A DNA stretch of 64,000 nucleotides from Phycisphaera sp. GTDB lineage: Bacteria > Planctomycetota > Phycisphaerae > Phycisphaerales > UBA1924. The stretch lies in contig CP098402.1 of the NCBI GenBank assembly GCA_025916675.1, positions 3,281,205 to 3,345,204 on the forward strand, read 5' to 3'. This document shows, piece after piece, positions 1 to 13,550 of the stretch. A model generated the notes under the pieces. That model was given only the letters and a program-made list of their open reading frames with translations. It had not been told where the DNA came from and did not search any database. How positions within the stretch are numbered: position 1 is the stretch's first letter; every line of letters starts with the position of its first letter. A program made the position numbers and the translations under genes.

Positions 1-1
1 C

Positions 2-562
2 GACGCTCTGACCGAGAAGCAACGCGGTGAACGCGACGCGTTCTTCGAGGGCTACCGCACCGCCGCCGGCCACGCTCGCAACGCGTGGCAGGCATTCCAG
101 ACCAAGGAGTGGATGCGGGACATCCGGACCAAGCCCCTCCACTCCATCAAGCACGCCTTCACGCTGGCCTACGACGCGGGCTTGCAGCTCAACGACATCG
201 AACACTTCCACAGGCGGGAGATTGCGGTACTCCGCGGTCAACGCAGAGCCGAGGAGCGCGAAGCGGGCCGAGAGGTTCGACAATCGCAGAAGGCCAGGAT
301 GGCCACGCTGCGGCAGGACTACACGCGGGACCGCCTGGGCTTCTTGCTCGAGCGGCAGATGGACCGGGCCAAGCTGCGGGCCGAGTGGCGGCAGCTCGAG
401 AAAGACCGGCAGCGGACCGTGAGCCGTGGCGGACGCACGTGGGCCGCGTCACCCCAGGGTTCCAAAGAGGGTGTTTCGGATGAAGTCCTCGAGAAGGCCA
501 GGCTAATGCGTGAGGCCCGTGAGCAACGCCGGCGTGATCGAGGCCGAGGGCTCGAGCGGTAG
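2..562 (+). CDS. C-terminal part of a probable relaxase/mobilization protein (5' partial)
   Basis: The frame is open from the first bases of the window, so only the C-terminal 186 residues are visible. They are strongly charged and helical, with dense Arg, Lys, Glu and Gln from about residue 60 to the end, and contain no recognisable catalytic motif. Such tails are common in MobA/TraI-type relaxases, and the coupling protein gene about 1 kb away fits that role. The catalytic N-terminus, with its expected Tyr and three-His motif, would lie outside the window, so the assignment rests mainly on context. It converges with the next gene, leaving 8 bp between their ends. Confidence 0.45.
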   Translation, partial: DALTEKQRGERDAFFEGYRTAAGHARNAWQAFQTKEWMRDIRTKPLHSIKHAFTLAYDAGLQLNDIEHFHRREIAVLRGQRRAEEREAGREVRQSQKARMATLRQDYTRDRLGFLLERQMDRAKLRAEWRQLEKDRQRTVSRGGRTWAASPQGSKEGVSDEVLEKARLMREAREQRRRDRGRGLER

Positions 563-3416: not shown

Positions 3417-3851
3417 TCACTCGGTCGGTGCGTCGGCAGCGGCGTCATGCTCCGGCTCTTCGGCCGGCACGATGTAGGGTTCCGCAGCGACCTGTTGGAC
3501 CAGGTCCGCTGCGAGCATCCCCAGTGAATCCGTCTTCCGTTCTGCGTCGGCAAGCGCGCGGGCCGACGCCTCGATGAGTGCTGTTGCGTTGGCTAGCTCC
3601 ATGAGCAGGACCTGGTTCTCTGCCTCGAGCGTGTCCAGCCTCGCATGCAGGTAAGACTCGATATCCATGCCCTCGCTCGACGCGTCATGCTCGGTCACCG
3701 CCCGCTGCCAACCATCCAGGGCTCCGGTGGCCGACGCCCTGATCCTCAACGGCAACTCGGGCTCCATCATGGCGAGCACGAACCCGGCGACCATGCACGC
3801 CAGGAAGGCGAACCCACAGAGCACCCATACCGGTGTGCGCAGGTTGATCAC
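3417..3851 (-). CDS. Membrane-anchored coiled-coil protein (144 aa)
   Basis: The N-terminus has one membrane segment (about residues 8-27, VWVLCGFAFLACMVAGFVLA). Helical heptad-like sequence follows (LDTLEAENQVLLMELANATA) and the tail is acidic. The start overlaps the upstream gene's stop by 4 bp (ATGA), so it is the last gene of the overlapping operon that begins with the ExbB-like gene at 6068. No family is recognised. It may be an extra periplasmic or cytoplasmic subunit of that membrane complex. Confidence 0.6.
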   Translation of the reverse strand: MINLRTPVWVLCGFAFLACMVAGFVLAMMEPELPLRIRASATGALDGWQRAVTEHDASSEGMDIESYLHARLDTLEAENQVLLMELANATALIEASARALADAERKTDSLGMLAADLVQQVAAEPYIVPAEEPEHDAAADAPTE

Positions 3852-4231
3852 GGCCGTTCCTCCCTCGGCTTGATCGAATCCGCGACCAGGCTCGAATACT
3901 CGATGAGCTCATCCAGGCCATCAACGCTGATGCCCTGGGCTGTCAGTTCACGCTGGTGGCGTTCGAGGCTGCGGACCTTCATCCGAAGCGAGACCGCTGC
4001 CCGGGTGCGCTCGGTGCCCTTGAGAAGATCGGGGCCAGAGAGCACAGCAGGAAGCTCGCTGATGCGGTTCGGTCCAGACAGTCCAGAACTTGTGCCCTCG
4101 CGAAAAACCGAGGAACCCATGGAGAGTGCGCCGATCGCTAGGCCCGCGATGACCACGACGATGGCGACGAGAACACCTCGCTGCACGTCGCTCTCCTCAC
4201 GGTACCGATTCCCTAAATCTGTCACCTTCAT
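3848..4231 (-). CDS. Membrane-anchored hypothetical protein (127 aa)
   Basis: A single membrane segment lies at about residues 20-40 (VLVAIVVVIAGLAIGALSMG). A Ser/Gly/Pro-rich linker and a charged C-terminal helix (LRMKVRSLERHQRELTAQG) follow. It sits 47 bp downstream of the VWA gene and overlaps the next TM-coil gene by 4 bp. The paired arrangement and similar architecture suggest that this protein and its downstream neighbour are partner subunits. No known family is recognised. Confidence 0.6.
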   Translation of the reverse strand: MKVTDLGNRYREESDVQRGVLVAIVVVIAGLAIGALSMGSSVFREGTSSGLSGPNRISELPAVLSGPDLLKGTERTRAAVSLRMKVRSLERHQRELTAQGISVDGLDELIEYSSLVADSIKPREERP

Positions 4232-4278
4232 CTCAATCTCCCTTAATGTTGGAAGCCATCCGACGTGGCTACGCCGGC

Positions 4279-5286
4279 CTATCGACTGGTGATCCCCCGG
4301 AGCAATGGCTCGAGCATGTCCGATGGGTTTTCCGAGAACGTTGCCCTGCTACCGCCTTGACGTGAGACGCCCTGGAAGAACGCTCGGTCGCGACCATGCG
4401 TACCCGTGAAGATGTGCACGGTGCCGTTTCGGTCATCGCTCTTCACCCACTCGGCCAGATGAGCCTGCACCCGGCTTGCGGCCGCGGCCGATCGATCACC
4501 CGCCTCGAATGGGCCTACATCAGTGAGCGTGACCAGCCGCTTCGAAGCTAGTTGGTTGGACGAAGAATCCAGCATCGCGATGCCAGCCTCGACGGCGGCC
4601 GCGAGGTCGGTCGCGCTCGACTTGGTGTCGATCGCCCCGAGGAACGCCGCCAGCTGATTGAGGCTCTTGCCCTGATCGACGCTCGTCGGACGGATCTGGA
4701 TTAGTCGGAAGACGCGCTGGTCCATCCGGTAGGCGATCACACCCACACGAAGCGTTGTCAGCGGCCCGAGCGTCTCTGAGAGCGTCCGTACCCGATCGAC
4801 AAGCTGGGCGATACGTGCAGCCTGAGACTGGCTCGTGTCGATCAGAAACACCACATCCACGCTCTTGGTCGCCAGTTCGTTCTCGGCACGATCCGCCCGC
4901 GACGACTCCGAAGAGGCGAGCGCTTCGGCGACGTCAGCCCGTTTTTCTTCACGCCGCGCGAGGGCTTTGGCCTGCTCGGCTCTGTCCCTCTGCTGCTTGG
5001 CCAACTCTGATGCCTGCTGGGCCTTGCCCTGCCACGCCTCTGCCTCCGACACCGCCGCCTGCCGCGCATCCTCGGCATCGCTCGCGACGCCGATGGCCGA
5101 CTGGAGTGATGCCAGTGTCGTCGCCAACTCGGCTTCGAGCTCCTCTGCATCGGCCGTGCTGCTCAGCGTCACTAGGGGCACCATGCTCGTGAAGAGGGAC
5201 ATGAACAACAGGGCCAGTAGGGCCCACACGTCGCCGTTGACGACGAGCCCGAGCGGCGTCGAGGATGAAGCACGACGGCGGCTCAT
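4279..5286 (-). CDS. ExbD/MotB-like anchor with coiled coil and VWA domain (335 aa)
   Basis: The start at 5284-5286 overlaps the upstream gene's stop by 4 bp. A membrane segment begins with Asp19 (GDVWALLALLFMSLF). It resembles the ExbD/TolR helix, in which an Asp followed by Val and a Leu-rich run with FM carries the proton. Residues about 45-140 form a long Ala/Glu/Arg coiled coil. Residues about 145-325 form a VWA domain with a complete MIDAS start (Asp150-x-Ser152-x-Ser154), a SATD segment for the MIDAS Thr and an LTDVG segment for the later Asp. The usual peptidoglycan-binding (OmpA) domain is absent. It is inferred to be the stator partner of the adjacent ExbB-like protein, with the VWA domain binding an unknown ligand outside the inner membrane. 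Confidence 0.8.
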   Translation of the reverse strand: MSRRRASSSTPLGLVVNGDVWALLALLFMSLFTSMVPLVTLSSTADAEELEAELATTLASLQSAIGVASDAEDARQAAVSEAEAWQGKAQQASELAKQQRDRAEQAKALARREEKRADVAEALASSESSRADRAENELATKSVDVVFLIDTSQSQAARIAQLVDRVRTLSETLGPLTTLRVGVIAYRMDQRVFRLIQIRPTSVDQGKSLNQLAAFLGAIDTKSSATDLAAAVEAGIAMLDSSSNQLASKRLVTLTDVGPFEAGDRSAAAASRVQAHLAEWVKSDDRNGTVHIFTGTHGRDRAFFQGVSRQGGSRATFSENPSDMLEPLLRGITSR

Positions 5287-6068
5287 GGCTGCCCATCCTT
5301 TTTCGAACCCTCGGCGCCGGAGGCGCAGATTGCTGGCACGATGTAGTTGGCCAGGAGCTCGCGGGAATGGGCCACATAGGCCCGGCCCGAGGCCTGCACG
5401 GCGGCCGCCAGGGCATTCAGAACGATGCTGGCCAGCACGCCCAGAACGGTCGAGCCGTAGGCCAAGCTCAACGAGGCGATGGGCCCGCCAAAGCCGAGTA
5501 ACTCCTCGAACATCTTTGGTCCGCTGCCCACGTCGGCCGACGACGCGTAGGCCGACAGGCCACTGAGGGACTGCATGGCCCCCAGAGCGGTGCCGAACAC
5601 GCCGATGAGCACGCAACTGCCCGATAACCACCGGGCCGGGCCTGCAAGGCGATCGAGTTGATCTTCCATGACCCCCACCCAGTCGTCACCGTGTATGGGT
5701 CGGCCATGGCGTCCGGCCTGTGCCATTCCGTTGATGGTCGCGCGGAATGGCGTTGTCGAGCCGGCCGTGTCGACGAGGAAGGTGCCCACATCCTCGATGC
5801 GTTCCAGATGCTCGACTTCTCGCTCGGTCTCTCGGGACCACTGCCGAGCACGCACAGCACCCGCCACGACGGTCCCGACGCCGCCCAGGAACAACATCCC
5901 GATGAGCAGGTAGACGGCGTGTTCGAGCCGCCCTTGGCTCACGGCTAGGGCGAGCAGGAAGATGCCGCCGCAGGCGAGAAGTCCCACGATCGCCACATCA
6001 AGCACCGGCCGGGCCTCTCCGAAGCCCGGGGTCATCGTCGTCATCGTGCTTCCATCGTTTCTGGGCAT
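5283..6068 (-). CDS. MotA/TolQ/ExbB-type proton channel family protein (261 aa)
   Basis: Four membrane segments are visible: two near the N-terminus (about residues 22-45 and 50-75), a third containing IGVFGTALGAMQ, and a fourth containing IASLSLAYGSTVLGVL. The last two carry the family signature, GxxGTxxG followed by the small-residue ALxxTxxGL helix whose Thr residues line the ion path in TolQ/ExbB. The loop between TM2 and TM3 is cytoplasmic and shorter than in ZorA or MotA. Its stop overlaps the start of the VWA-bearing ExbD-like gene, so the two are expected to assemble as an ion-driven complex. It is the first gene of a four-gene operon and its upstream region contains a tandem repeat. 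Confidence 0.8.
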   Translation of the reverse strand: MPRNDGSTMTTMTPGFGEARPVLDVAIVGLLACGGIFLLALAVSQGRLEHAVYLLIGMLFLGGVGTVVAGAVRARQWSRETEREVEHLERIEDVGTFLVDTAGSTTPFRATINGMAQAGRHGRPIHGDDWVGVMEDQLDRLAGPARWLSGSCVLIGVFGTALGAMQSLSGLSAYASSADVGSGPKMFEELLGFGGPIASLSLAYGSTVLGVLASIVLNALAAAVQASGRAYVAHSRELLANYIVPAICASGAEGSKKDGQP

Positions 6069-6295: not shown

Positions 6296-7639
6296 ATGGA
6301 CAACACCACCACACCATCGCCGAGTAACAAGGACACCCATCGAGGCCTCCGATTTGGCGCGCTCGAACTCATCCGATGCACGGAGCAGACCGCTGTGCTG
6401 ATGTCCGACGCAGAAGGTCGCGGCGTCCACCGGGACGAAATCGGCAAGTATGCGACCATGTCCATGGCCGGCTACCTCCGCCAGTCGACCTACAGAGCCC
6501 GGTTCGGTCTCTTCGACGAGATCTACGACCGCGAAGATGAGGCCAAGGGATCAACCCCATCGGTCCAGATCCTGAGGGCACTCGAGAGGGTCGGTGACGG
6601 CTACCGCGAAGCCTCCGGTCCTGACCGGGATGGTGATCTCGATCTTGACTTCTGCTGCGCACCGATCGATGGAAGGCACGCCCTGTCCATGGGCCATACC
6701 GGGGGCACGGTGTCGGCTATTGGCTTCGCCGCCCACCGCGCCGATAATCCGATCTTTGCTCCGCCACGGCAGCGTCTGAATATCAAGCGAGGGCGCGGCC
6801 AGCCGGCACACGCTGATCGAAGCCCGCCATGGCTCATCCTCGCGGGATCCGCCGAGTCGGCACTGCACCTTGGCGGAGTAGAGGCCATCCAGGACTTCCT
6901 CCGAAAGCTCGCCGGTCGGCAGCAAGGCGACCTTGTCGAGGATTTTGTCTCCAACGTCTTTGATACGCCTGGCTCTCGTGGGCCTTCCGACGCCAGGCTG
7001 CCCATCCGCATCGAGCGATCGCTCGCGGTGCTGGATCAGCCGCGGTTCTTGCTGACCTGGGATCGCAGGTCGACCCCTTCATGCAAAAAGAGGGTGTTTA
7101 CGGGATCATCCCTTGCCATCAACCTGGCGGCGATGTTCGACACCCGTGGATTCGATTGCGCTCTTTCCATTACTCGGCACCTTCACGCGGTACAAGCCAG
7201 CATCGCGGCGAGAGCCCTTGGTGGCTTTGTCGTCGCCGTGCCCCTGTGCCGGGCCGAGGAGCCATCGGGACCTGCGGGCAACGTCCCGCTCTGTATCGAA
7301 TCTGACGACATTTGGACACACACCAAATTCGTTCGATCCACCGATGCGGCCTTAGTCGTGAGTGGTATCAGCGAGAACGTCGTGCTGAGCCCGGTTCGTA
7401 TCCGCGGTGACCAGGCACGGGTCAACACATTGAGCCTGAGCGCACGCACTAAGTCAATGCGCAAACTGGATCATCGAATCACACTGAGTGGCCCATCCGC
7501 AACCCGCTTTGCGTGCTTCGATGAAGGGGTATTTGATTCTCTAAAGCGTGGTGATCCCCTGCCAGAGGCTGAATGGGATAGCGCTGACGAGTGGCGCAAG
7601 CGGTTCGACAAGATGCTCAACCGACATCATCTTCGCTGA
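6296..7639 (+). CDS. Divergent GlpX-type (class II fructose-bisphosphatase) homologue, probably non-catalytic
   Basis: Landmarks of the GlpX family appear in order. LELIRCTEQTA near residue 23 matches the family's E-[FL]-x-R-x-T-E-x-x-A start. APIDGRHALSMG at about residues 122-133 aligns with the D-P-I-[ED]-G-T metal site. LDQPRF aligns with the RPRH region. ISENVVLSPVRIRG and TLSLSARTKSMR align with the C-terminal ATG[IV]TDG..GVR and SLVMRSKSGT blocks. The metal-site Asp is Ala122, the following Thr is Arg, the DGD substrate loop is replaced and the early GDK motif is altered, so normal phosphatase activity is unlikely. It is about 100 residues longer than usual GlpX. It is transcribed divergently from the ExbB/VWA operon, with no good ribosome-binding site before the ATG. 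Confidence 0.7.
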   Translation: MDNTTTPSPSNKDTHRGLRFGALELIRCTEQTAVLMSDAEGRGVHRDEIGKYATMSMAGYLRQSTYRARFGLFDEIYDREDEAKGSTPSVQILRALERVGDGYREASGPDRDGDLDLDFCCAPIDGRHALSMGHTGGTVSAIGFAAHRADNPIFAPPRQRLNIKRGRGQPAHADRSPPWLILAGSAESALHLGGVEAIQDFLRKLAGRQQGDLVEDFVSNVFDTPGSRGPSDARLPIRIERSLAVLDQPRFLLTWDRRSTPSCKKRVFTGSSLAINLAAMFDTRGFDCALSITRHLHAVQASIAARALGGFVVAVPLCRAEEPSGPAGNVPLCIESDDIWTHTKFVRSTDAALVVSGISENVVLSPVRIRGDQARVNTLSLSARTKSMRKLDHRITLSGPSATRFACFDEGVFDSLKRGDPLPEAEWDSADEWRKRFDKMLNRHHLR

Positions 7640-7658: not shown

Positions 7659-8546
7659 CTAGGGGTGAGATGGTCTGTCCCCGAGCACCCAATCGGCGGC
7701 CTTCTGCGCCGCACCGGCGGCCTGGACCACCAGCTTGGTATCGCTGCTCAGCTTCTTCCGCCAGCCGTCGATGTAGGCCGCAGATTGATCGATCGTGGCT
7801 TGTCCGATGCCCGAAGCCGCCGCCAGGAACGCCGCCCCCATCTCGGCGACCAGCTCCTCCTTGGAGTAATCCGCCGAGCCGAACGGTGAGAGGTTCTCGT
7901 CCAGGCCCCGGTCCAGCCGTGAGCTGTGCCCGGTCGAGTGGACCAGCTCGTGGAAGAGCGTCGCGTAGTAGGACTCTGGATCGACGAACCGATCGGGATC
8001 GGCGATGCGCACCAGGTCCGCCTTGGGCTGGTAGAGCGCGCGAGATCCTTTGTGCTCGATGCGTGGCCCACCCTCGTAGTGCTCGACGATCGCCGCGGCG
8101 GCCTCGATGGGCGTGAACTCCGCCTTCTCGTCCTGATCTTCGGCCGTCGCCGGCGACGGGACCTCGATCCCCTCGCACTGCTCGGCGTTGAAGACGGTGT
8201 AGTGGCGCAGCACCGGCACGGTGATGTCCTCGCCGGTTTCCTTGTCCTGGGTCGCGTACTGCTTCCAGAGGATCACCAGCGAGCCCTTCTCGCCCTTGCG
8301 TACGTGCCCGCCCATCTTCCTGGCCTGCACGTATGTCAGCCAGTACGGCGACTCGTAGCCCTCCAGCCAGGCCGTGACGGCCAGCAGGAAGACGTTGATG
8401 CCGCGATACGCCCGCTGCGACGCGAGGCTCGTCGGAAGCGATTGTTCGCCCCCAGCGCCCCGGATCGGGTGTCGCCAGGGCACGGTGCCCCGGTCGAGCA
8501 ACTCGATGATGCGGCCGGTCACCGCCGTGTACACATCCAACGCCAT
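7659..8546 (-). CDS. ardC: ArdC-family antirestriction protein
   Basis: ArdC proteins bind single-stranded DNA and protect incoming conjugative DNA from restriction. The N-terminal domain (about residues 1-125) has the typical YRGINVFLL and RKMGGHVRKGEKG sequences. The C-terminal zincin-like metallopeptidase domain contains HELVHSTGH (about residue 200), and YSKEELVAEMGAAFL supplies the third metal-ligand Glu region. At 295 residues the length matches the family. Its presence in a transferring element is expected. It converges with the GlpX-like gene, 19 bp apart. Confidence 0.92.
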   Translation of the reverse strand: MALDVYTAVTGRIIELLDRGTVPWRHPIRGAGGEQSLPTSLASQRAYRGINVFLLAVTAWLEGYESPYWLTYVQARKMGGHVRKGEKGSLVILWKQYATQDKETGEDITVPVLRHYTVFNAEQCEGIEVPSPATAEDQDEKAEFTPIEAAAAIVEHYEGGPRIEHKGSRALYQPKADLVRIADPDRFVDPESYYATLFHELVHSTGHSSRLDRGLDENLSPFGSADYSKEELVAEMGAAFLAAASGIGQATIDQSAAYIDGWRKKLSSDTKLVVQAAGAAQKAADWVLGDRPSHP

Positions 8547-11280: not shown

Positions 11281-12519
11281 CTAGTAATCAAGTACCGGCG
11301 AATCCAGTCGTTGTCGAACCCATTCGATGAGCAACCTGTTTTCAGGCGCCACTGGACGCATGTAGACATCTGCAACTGCAGAGCTGGCTGCATGTCCTAG
11401 CCAGCCGCGCATTTCACTGATCGAGCAGCCATCGCGTGAACCAAACTCGGTCGCACCCAGATGGCGTAGAACGTAGAAACCACTCATCGTGTCTTTGTTT
11501 TCATCTATGCGCTCTCGAAGCGCGTGCCACCAGCCTTGTACCCGATTCACATGGCCACTAACGAGGGGCAATCCAGACTGGGACTGGAATACGCGTTCCC
11601 CTTGCGGTCGTGCGGTCTCTTGGATGTAGCCATGAAGATACGCCCATACAAGACGCGGCGTACTCCCATATCGTTGGATGCCGGTTTTTGCACGCCTTAG
11701 GTCGTACCCAATCTTGTCAATTTGGCCAACACGCAACATGGAGAGATCTGAAGGTCCGAATCCAAGGCCAATGGCAGTCCAGATCATGGCTTGGCCACGC
11801 AGGTCTGTTGCAGCCAGTATTCGTTTCAATTGATCAAGTGTTGGGAGCAAACGCGGTTGTCTTGGGCGTCCAACAAACCGGTCACGCGACTCCCAATTCC
11901 ACGAGAGCGTTTGTTGCCCATGCTCAGGTCGTCCTGCTCGGATAATTAGATGCCGTACTCCTTGCATGGCATGGGCGATGGCTGCCGAAGAGAGGTTATC
12001 CTCCATGAGCTTGCGGTTGTATCCTTCAACTTGCGGCATTGTCAGGTCATCTACTCGAATCTTGCCTACAGCTCCCTGCCCATGCTCTGTGTTGATGAAC
12101 TTGAGGAACGCTCGAACGTAGTAGCACCGATATCGAAACACATCGGGATGGATGGTGCCACGAGCTCGGGGCGTATCAGCTTCCCTGACTCTGGATTGCT
12201 CGTAGTTGAGCAAGCCGTTCGCCACTTCCAACAAGCACCCCGGCTGCATAGTGACAGCCGTCTGTGTAGCCAATTCATGATTGATGCTGGATGGTGAACG
12301 CCGGTGACCGTGTCGAGGTGTTGGTCTTCCGTGGAGATATTCATCAAGCCAATTTGCGTAACGACGCTCAGCTTCGGCTTTATCTGAGGGATTGGCAAGA
12401 TCGAATCGGTGCTTCTTCGGGCTGCCCGTCTGGGGGTCGCGGAATGACACATGCCAGCCGATGCCACGATTGGTGGTGAAGGACAACTTCGGGATTCTGG
12501 GCTTGCGCTGATGGGGCAT
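11281..12519 (-). CDS. Tyrosine recombinase/integrase of the element
   Basis: The N-terminal part (about residues 1-110) is an arm-binding region. The middle part is a SAM-like core-binding domain, and the C-terminal catalytic domain has the box-II pattern YVLRHLGATEFG, LGHAA and the final Tyr in VADVYMRPV. The usual first catalytic Arg position reads GLGFGPSDLSML, a variant common in planctomycete integrases and not necessarily inactivating. ATG at 12517-12519 is preferred; an in-frame GTG at 12534 would add five residues and overlap the portal remnant. The gene lies at the element's edge with its start toward the junction, as expected for an integrase. Confidence 0.88.
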   Translation of the reverse strand: MPHQRKPRIPKLSFTTNRGIGWHVSFRDPQTGSPKKHRFDLANPSDKAEAERRYANWLDEYLHGRPTPRHGHRRSPSSINHELATQTAVTMQPGCLLEVANGLLNYEQSRVREADTPRARGTIHPDVFRYRCYYVRAFLKFINTEHGQGAVGKIRVDDLTMPQVEGYNRKLMEDNLSSAAIAHAMQGVRHLIIRAGRPEHGQQTLSWNWESRDRFVGRPRQPRLLPTLDQLKRILAATDLRGQAMIWTAIGLGFGPSDLSMLRVGQIDKIGYDLRRAKTGIQRYGSTPRLVWAYLHGYIQETARPQGERVFQSQSGLPLVSGHVNRVQGWWHALRERIDENKDTMSGFYVLRHLGATEFGSRDGCSISEMRGWLGHAASSAVADVYMRPVAPENRLLIEWVRQRLDSPVLDY

Positions 12520-12530
12520 GCTTGCAACTC

Positions 12531-13550
12531 TCACTCAGGGAGTTGGTCTATTGTAGTGCATGATCGGACAATAAGTAGTGCTAAAACCATGTAAAATACT
12601 CGAAATAGCGTATTTTGGTACATCTTGAAGGACTGCATGGTCACGCGGGCGGCGCGGTCGCTCAGGCGTGTGTTGAGCTGGTCTTGGAGTGGGGTGAGCG
12701 GCTCGACCTCGCCGATGCCGGCGTAGCAGAGCGGCTGGGGGATGTTCTGGATGTGCACCACCGGCACGCGGCCGGGCGAGGCGCGGTTGGGGCCCTCGGC
12801 GATGAGCTCGCCGTCGACGTAGACCTGCCGCCACGCGCCGCTGAGGACTTCGGTGACGCGCTCGGTGTTGAGGGTGCGGCCGTGGCGGTCGTCCTCGTCG
12901 GTTTGCGAGGTGCGCCGCGTGAAGTCGATGGCGTAGGCCTCGAGGCGTCGGTAGTCGCTCGGGTCGACGATGGGCACGCCGCGGCTTGGGTCGATCGCTT
13001 CGACGCGGATGGCCTCGGCCAGCACTTCGGCCGGGAGTTCGAGGAGCGCATCCAGGTCAGGCGCGAGGGCGGTGAGGCGTTCGATATCGCAGCGGAGCAG
13101 CAGGTCGACGTGGCCGTAGACGTGGCCAAGGAGGAGGGCGTCGTGCAGGAGCGAGAGCCCGCCCGAGGCTTCCCACACGGCGTCGAGGGCGGCTTCGATG
13201 CTGCGGCGGTGCTGGGGTTGGCCGGCGGTGCTGAGCAGCACGAGCGGCTCGGGCAGCATGAAGTCGACCATGGTGTGGATGCGCCAGGCGATGTCGTTCT
13301 CGATGACGACCTCGTTCGTGGCCGCGTCGACCATCCGATCGTCGGACCAGGGGTCCCACGCGCCGCGGAGGCGGGGCGGGAGGCCGGTGGCTTGGGGGAG
13401 TTCGCCGCCCGGGCGGGTTGGCTCGTTTCGGAAGTAGCCCCAGAGCCAGCGGAGGCGCGGCGCGATGTCGCGCTCGTGCTCGGCCAGGATGATCTCGAGG
13501 GCCTGGGGCGAGAGGGTGGTGTCGGTGAAGGGTGCGAGGTTGAACGCCAC
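12531..13550 (-). pseudogene. Phage portal-like protein, 3' end lost at the element junction
   Basis: The N-terminal about 310 residues read as an SPP1 gp6-like portal protein, the dodecameric ring at the phage DNA-packaging vertex: a conserved-looking DIAWRIHTMVDFML segment, then GHVYGHVDLLLR, and HIQNIPQPLCYAGIGEVEP with LQDQLNTRLSDRA. The frame then leaves family-like sequence near 12,620 and ends in a short hydrophobic tail inside integrase-proximal DNA, so it is truncated relative to the usual 450 or more residues. The GTG start has a strong AGGGAGGT site. The missing 3' part is predicted beyond the element's other end, making this gene the integration target. No other phage genes are adjacent. 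Confidence 0.65.
12593..12616. other. Candidate attachment-site core
   Basis: Perfect 7-bp inverted arms (AAAATAC at 12593-12599 and GTATTTT at 12610-12616) flank a 10-bp spacer. This resembles a tyrosine recombinase core site. It lies exactly where the sequence switches from AT-rich element DNA to the GC-rich portal-like gene. Identification as att is inferred. Confidence 0.5.

Follow-up and report, generated by a model that had tools for sequence, protein, structure and literature searches.

A channel gene of the MotA/TolQ/ExbB type and an Asp-helix VWA gene upstream of a coupling protein in a planctomycete mobile element: a candidate proton-driven motor for DNA transfer

The stretch of DNA analysed here (hereafter the window; 64,000 nucleotides, positions 3,281,205 to 3,345,204 of contig CP098402.1, assembly GCA_025916675.1) belongs to the 3.62-Mb single-contig genome of the planctomycete Phycisphaera sp. 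Its minus strand carries an operon that runs from 6068 to 571 and encodes, in this order, an ExbB-like protein, a protein with a von Willebrand factor A (VWA) domain, two proteins with one transmembrane (TM) helix each, a type IV coupling protein (T4CP) and three small proteins. The subject of this report is the pair formed by the first two genes, the MotA/TolQ/ExbB-like channel protein P0002 (5283..6068, minus strand, 261 residues) and the VWA protein P0001 (4279..5286, minus strand, 335 residues from the ATG at 5286, upstream of which the mechanically called open reading frame (ORF) extends to a GTG). Both reading frames are present as an initial annotation, made from the letters alone, had described them, and they share 4 bp (5283-5286). 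We studied P0002 by Pfam, family profile, alignment, hydropathy and fold search, and P0001 by Pfam, alignment, hydropathy and structure prediction.

That P0002 belongs with the MotA/TolQ/ExbB proton channels is well supported by its profile and fold relation to solved members, even though its own Pfam score lies under the cut-off. When a profile of the six-member ExbB-like family was compared with the PDB, the top 14 of 17 matches were MotA, PomA and TolQ (E 0.0013-0.046), and the motif region lines up in the two alignments displayed. The Pfam family MotA_ExbB (PF01618) is matched at E <= 1 by five of the six members (best 6.4e-11), and a Foldseek search with a low-confidence model of P0002 gave ExbB, TolQ, MotA or ZorA at all 50 matches listed, of 250 at E <= 10. 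Hydropathy marks stretches at about residues 19-48, 50-74 and 197-227, the last of which includes Thr207, whereas the GxxGTxxG region at about 147-170 falls under the threshold used and yet aligns with MotA/PomA/TolQ. The four-helix ExbB/MotA-type protein of the initial annotation thus stands as regards its ExbB likeness, and its third helix is less evident, being sub-threshold by hydropathy in the proteins of the window and of G307 and above the threshold in those of G736, G550 and G491. Proteins of this kind have functionally important glycines before or in the third helix and a pore threonine in the last one. Consistently, G159, G163 and T207 are invariant in all six ExbB-like proteins, the first glycine of the motif being replaced by alanine in two, and a ring of threonines in the channel is stated in PMC12204202.

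The partner protein has the layout expected from the initial annotation: an N-terminal helix with Asp19, a coiled coil at about residues 47-139 and, at 144-263, a VWA domain whose metal-ion-dependent adhesion site (MIDAS) comprises D150/S152/S154, T226 and D256, residues that we take to have the usual MIDAS roles. The domain passes the cut-offs of two Pfam families (PF13519, 31.6 bits against 27; PF00092, 27.9 against 23.8). In an alignment of five VWA proteins, D150, S154, T226, D256 and a DVGP motif are invariant and position 152 is Ser or Thr. The sixth relative (L036:492-1476) was excluded from the alignment; its TM helix and VWA domain lie in different frames, indicating a gene that is broken or misassembled. 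In all six VWA genes, the best hydrophobic window of 21 residues has an aspartate among its first eight positions or immediately ahead of them. Among 12 one-TM neighbours that we picked as controls, none has an aspartate in the first half of that hydrophobic window, P0008 has one in the second half, and P0004 has one four residues before it. Under the positive-inside rule, the basic pre-helix N-termini of the VWA proteins of the window, G736, G550 and G491 fit a VWA domain located outside the inner membrane.

How close is the link between this pair and the coupling protein? The T4CP of the window, P0005 (1546..3222, minus strand, 558 residues), is VirD4/TraG-like (PF02534, 4.9e-31; PF12696, 6e-23). 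With P0005 as query, 392 genomes of the phylum yielded 14 places in 11 genomes at E <= 1e-10, and with P0018 as query, 397 genomes of the class of G307 yielded 10 places in eight genomes at E <= 1e-20; the two samples overlap, and the distinct T4CP loci total 22. Profile scores divide them into 11 loci with the T4CP clade of the window (at least 375.7 bits, with a profile built from six of these 11) and 11 outside it (83-181 bits). A midpoint-rooted tree of 21 of the 22 loci separates the clade from the rest; L025 (G226), with a T4CP at 181 bits and neither VWA nor ExbB, is absent from the tree and was counted outside the clade.

Upstream of the T4CP, six of the 11 clade loci (the window, L023, L036, L037, L062 and L063) carry an ExbB-like gene together with a TM-VWA gene, an arrangement that we call type A. 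The other five (L022, L024, L060, L061 and L064; type B) have at the same place a multi-TM protein of 381-463 residues from stop to stop, for which no Pfam family reaches its cut-off, together with a protein that is probably exported, where "exported" reflects our reading of signal-like N-termini, with a hydropathy stretch in two of the five. This second protein bears a VWA domain in four of the five loci, none being detected in L060. Any VWA is thus found near the T4CP in 10 of the 11 clade loci, and within the sequence examined neither a VWA nor an ExbB match occurs at any of the 11 loci outside the clade. With the window left out, ExbB plus TM-VWA is seen in 5/10 clade loci versus 0/11 others (Fisher p 0.012) and any VWA in 9/10 versus 0/11 (p 3.4e-5), values that are indicative only, because the loci are related and the clade was defined after the scores had been seen. 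The ExbB and VWA profiles were built from the window, L023, L036 and L037, so that L062 and L063 are independent of profile building; a second VWA profile had L022 and L024, but neither L061 nor L064, in its training set. On the T4CP tree, loci of types A and B are interleaved, which indicates that the position upstream of the T4CP persists while its module is exchanged. The search for co-occurring ExbB-VWA pairs suggested by the initial annotation therefore gave five further planctomycete loci, all directly upstream of T4CPs of the same clade, and because it recurs in them we regard the pair as more than a chance arrangement.

Linkage was also reached from the other side. L036 and L037 were first found via VWA and not via T4CP, and when P0016 was used to search the 397 class genomes for VWA proteins, G589 and G736 were reached independently of the T4CP. 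Each of the six type-A loci has one VWA match, L036 being a short contig. Further VWA matches in five f71 genomes and in G119 and G165 were set aside as long VWA proteins, with no ExbB or T4CP match in about 1.5 kb per side (3.4 kb each). A search with P0002 matched 3 of 294 genomes; the match in G016 was rejected as a chance frame in a gene that reads as polyketide-synthase-like, and no VWA match accompanies the ExbB-like gene of G009 in the 13.8 kb examined. No relative of the pair was found in searches of viral contigs, nor in plasmid searches with the VWA and ExbB proteins (of four VWA queries, three were unmatched and one had a match at E 0.2). A scan of a wider contig collection returned eight loci, with L042 alone titled planctomycete. 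Three genomes examined with the Idiomarina family of TPH-vWA transducers in view, one gammaproteobacterial and two from Bacteroidota, had no match, a result that carries no weight.

Could the pair be a chromosomal-type force transducer of the envelope that the element merely carries as cargo and that has nothing to do with transfer? Roles of this kind have been put forward for other vWA families: PMC12204202 suggests that its first family may have a part in gliding and that its second exerts force at the outer membrane. Against it, the pair adjoins a T4CP in all six loci found (three of them found via T4CP), and TM-VWA matches above threshold in the 392 phylum and 397 class genomes are restricted to G000, G307, G589 and G736, all T4CP-linked, by a search that missed G550 and G491. 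We consider cargo of this type improbable.

The immediate neighbourhood of the pair is that of a mobilization module. The two TM partners named in the initial annotation were confirmed by hydropathy: P0004 (3848..4231, minus strand, 127 residues), which overlaps the next gene by 4 bp (3848-3851) and is without a match at E <= 1 in Pfam, PADLOC and NCBIfam, and the one-TM coiled protein P0003 (3417..3851, minus strand, 144 residues), which has no Pfam or NCBIfam family above the curated cut-off and nothing in PADLOC at E <= 1. Downstream of the T4CP lies the small one-TM protein P0008 (1185..1544, minus strand). Ten of the 11 clade loci have a relative of it after the T4CP, and six of these ten served to build the profile; in L061, the remaining locus, the T4CP lies at the end of its contig. 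P0008 is followed by the small proteins P0009 (893..1195, minus strand), with relatives in L023 and L024, and P0010 (571..843, minus strand), with relatives in seven of the 11 clade loci, four of which built the profile. Convergent to this operon, a MobA/VirD2-like relaxase gene ends at 562; its 3' part occupies 1..562 of the window on the plus strand, and the gene starts 893 bp left of the window (L007:1108-2562, 484 residues; PF03432, 1.6e-12). On the other side, a divergent gene next to the motor operon (6296-7639, plus strand) encodes an unusual protein like GlpX-type fructose-bisphosphatases (PF03320, E 1.2e-13).

This setting also suits a different role. MIDAS domains are usually ligand-binding, and the motor might move an adhesin of the MIDAS type, by which the recipient is recognised or a further copy of the element is blocked, thus giving surface or entry exclusion or stabilising mating pairs with no help in DNA translocation. 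Such a role would agree with the location of the genes in a mobilization operon and with the VWA proteins of different make that other elements have at the same place. The genes are, however, upstream of the T4CP and co-directional with it rather than separate, and no exclusion family is among the Pfam, PADLOC and NCBIfam matches, so we hold exclusion or stabilisation to be conceivable but unlikely.

Across the clade, the relaxases near the T4CPs are MobF-like in L023, L024, L037, L060, L062 and L063 (that of L037 is TrwC by Pfam) and MOBP-like in the window and L022; none is present in the sequence examined of L036, L061 and L064. Because MobF also adjoins three T4CPs outside the clade (L065, L070 and L071), the type of relaxase does not explain the link with VWA. 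Secretion-system profiles were searched in 15 genomes, nine with clade T4CPs and six for comparison, G696 and G226 being part of the T4CP count only. VirB4 (PF03135, PF19044) and VirB10/TrbI (PF03743) are unmatched in all nine clade genomes, including that of the window (G000). In G352 and G231, both PF19044 and PF03743 have matches, located on the contigs that also carry the T4CPs; PF03135 is matched in none of the 15 genomes and is uninformative here.

The operon lies in what we read as an integrative element of about 67 kb (negative coordinates lie left of the window). A portal-like gene, so labelled by reading and without a library scan, is apparently split, with its 5' part at 12531-13550 and its continuation about 67 kb leftward. 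An 11-bp direct repeat, TACATCTTGAA, sits at both apparent breaks, with its right copy at 12619..12629 (plus strand) and its left copy 67.2 kb away at -54605; by itself it has a BLAST E of 0.19, and it gains weight because it is placed where the gene seems to be interrupted. An integrase-like protein (11281..12534, minus strand), again labelled by reading and with no Pfam or NCBIfam match at E <= 1, is encoded at the right end of the element. A second integrase, confirmed by Pfam, is located near -13 kb, and the element may therefore be composite. Its called ORFs of more than 600 residues encode a protein that matches Dockerin weakly, a kinase/WD40 protein, GajA, GajB and an RHS-repeat protein. 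No VirB4 is among them, small ORFs having been scanned in part, and no part of a type IV secretion system (T4SS) was recognised among the larger ORFs of the element. The initial annotation had called the element conjugative: mobility, a relaxase (PF03432) and a T4CP, two components of a conjugative T4SS element, are indeed found, whereas no T4SS part is seen among the larger ORFs and the VirB4 and VirB10 profiles are unmatched genome-wide, so that "conjugative" is unproven.

Several other genes of the element deserve mention in their own right. Two ArdC-type antirestriction genes (ArdcN plus MPTase-PolyVal) are located at 7659-8546 and -4719..-3658, both on the minus strand. A ThiF/E1-like protein (-24582..-23143; L005:15418-16857) has a sub-cut-off JAB match and a PADLOC E1-E2 match at 3.8e-13, and plasmid pPla86_1 likewise has a gene annotated thiF. 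An ORF of 2277 residues (-20749..-13916), with RHS repeats in the 2027 residues scanned, adjoins the second integrase, a tyrosine integrase. A protein kinase-WD40 fusion of 1102 residues (-50330..-47022; L004:9670-12978) adjoins an ORF of 210 residues inside the element limits. A Gabija pair occupies -38504..-34627 (L005:1496-5373), with GajA at E 6.2e-181 and GajB at E 8.3e-121 by PADLOC and an overlap of 4 bp.

Might the motor itself serve defence, as the initial annotation had considered alongside surface exclusion and mating? One could imagine a Zorya-like anti-phage motor in which a VWA sensor replaces the peptidoglycan-binding domain that ZorB carries. P0002 shares with ZorA an ExbB-like channel and a weak, distant PADLOC score to ZorA3 (17.3 bits, E 3.8e-4), ZorAB occupies ranks 45 and 50 among the 50 fold matches listed, and Gabija resides on the same element. 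Unlike in Zorya, however, a VWA domain stands in for the peptidoglycan-binding one, and no ZorB, ZorC, ZorD or ZorE match is found in the nine other window proteins scanned, a set outside which the T4CP and ArdC lie; the recurring partners are T4CP and mobilization genes, and Gabija is about 40 kb away. We therefore rejected an identity with Zorya, and a defence role of any such kind appears distinctly improbable. Of the three functions first considered, a mating-related one fits best, because the pair adjoins a T4CP in six loci.

Apart from Zorya, the pair may be compared with three kinds of known systems. With ExbB-ExbD, TolQ-TolR and MotA-MotB it has in common the channel motif region, the fold matches and the Asp-headed helix of the partner; it differs from ExbD, TolR and MotB in its VWA domain, which takes the place of the periplasmic fold of ExbD/TolR and of the peptidoglycan-binding domain of MotB, and in its lack of an ExbD profile match. 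As to mobilization modules composed of a MOBP or MobF relaxase and a VirD4 T4CP, the nearest named plasmid, pPla86_1 (CP036297; PLSDB type "mobilizable", MOBP), has the same layout of relaxase, T4CP and small partner, with a probably exported VWA protein and a multi-TM protein replacing the ExbB and TPH-VWA proteins. Closest in architecture are the TolQ plus TPH-vWA force transducers of PMC12204202 (Mol Biol Evol 2025, msaf138, Fig. 4c-d), described there with no assigned function. They likewise have a TolQ-like gene adjoining an Asp-helix vWA gene with no tolR or exbD gene (exbD absence was judged by Pfam on the neighbours in the window and by reading at the other loci). The vWA genes described in that paper are predominantly in heterologous pairs and come from Proteobacteria and Verrucomicrobia, whereas the loci found here belong to Planctomycetota and have a single vWA each and a T4CP/relaxase setting. 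The main text of PMC12204202 contains no mention of "plasmid", "conjug", "mobile", "type IV" or "relaxase", and a literature search that left most subscription papers and all preprints outside its reach found no publication tying an ExbB/TolQ-vWA pair to conjugation. The motor-plus-VWA architecture is thus already published and not new; the T4CP-linked, single-VWA planctomycete branch and its functional lead look new.

Starting from the observed gene identities, the conserved Asp, Thr and MIDAS positions, and the operon and synteny with the T4CP, we infer from this context that the pair acts in transfer. We favour, with a probability of roughly 60%, a proton-motive-force-driven motor of the ExbB/TolQ plus TPH-vWA type working for the DNA-transfer operon of this planctomycete element. 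We envision a scenario whereby five ExbB-like chains would surround two TPHs and proton flow past Asp19 and the last-helix threonine would turn or pull the coiled coil, while the MIDAS VWA domain, outside the inner membrane, would grip a protein belonging either to the envelope of the donor or to its mating partner. The resulting force might open, align or stabilise an exit path for the relaxase-DNA complex delivered by the neighbouring T4CP. In type-B loci, the multi-TM protein and the probably exported, mostly VWA-bearing protein would fulfil the same task in the absence of this motor. If exported as their N-termini suggest, the type-B VWA proteins would reside on the same side as the type-A VWA. 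What both types share, we think, is a VWA domain close to the T4CP, either periplasmic or at the surface, and type A would power this domain.

A number of observations weigh against this transfer motor. On the side of the channel, P0002 scores 13.6 bits against PF01618, under the curated cut-off of 22.9, its relatives are only 18-21% identical to it, its AlphaFold2 model is weak (mean pLDDT, the predicted local distance difference test, 55.6), and the Foldseek search with that model has no match at E <= 0.001. On the side of the partner, P0001 has no ExbD/TolR or peptidoglycan-binding Pfam match at E <= 1, and the families tallied for five TM-VWA proteins (25 of 26 shown) include none of these either. 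The label "ExbD-like" therefore derives from the helix and its context, the ExbD Pfam profile being unmatched. The model of P0001 is also weak (mean pLDDT 62.0), with an uninformative fold search that has VWA domains among its matches, and the pre-helix N-terminus is acidic in the VWA proteins of G307 and G589c79, so that the positive-inside rule does not uniformly back the topology. As to linkage, no ExbB-like gene was found in five of the 11 clade loci, which makes it replaceable; the linkage is biased in that L023, L062 and L063 were found via the T4CP; and the TM-VWA genes of G550 and G491 escaped the VWA search, as unlinked copies may have done too. The absence of VirB4 and VirB10 does not single out the clade, because four of the six comparison genomes (G105, G216, G052 and G354) also lack all three profiles. 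We know of no phenotype for any relative of the pair, and according to PMC12204202 its first vWA family has no reported phenotype.

Taken to the extreme, the low identity and the sub-cut-off Pfam score of P0002 could mean that the pair is not a working motor at all, its helix and channel likeness persisting without ion conduction. The helix aspartate, two motif glycines and the last-helix threonine are nevertheless kept despite divergence to about 20% identity, and we deem a non-working motor most improbable.

A bolder scenario is that planctomycete mobile elements transfer DNA without a VirB4-type secretion system, with the T4CP handing the relaxase-DNA complex to an envelope machine that draws on the proton gradient by means of an ExbB-like channel and a rotor tipped with VWA; sister elements would instead have a VWA-type exported protein and a multi-TM partner. 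This we regard as rather doubtful. TPH-vWA motors have been published without a function, and their conserved link with a T4CP and a relaxase offers one that is testable, namely conjugative transfer. Should transfer depend on the motor, a component powered by the proton gradient would be added to conjugation, with implications for the way in which planctomycete elements that have no recognised T4SS pass from cell to cell.

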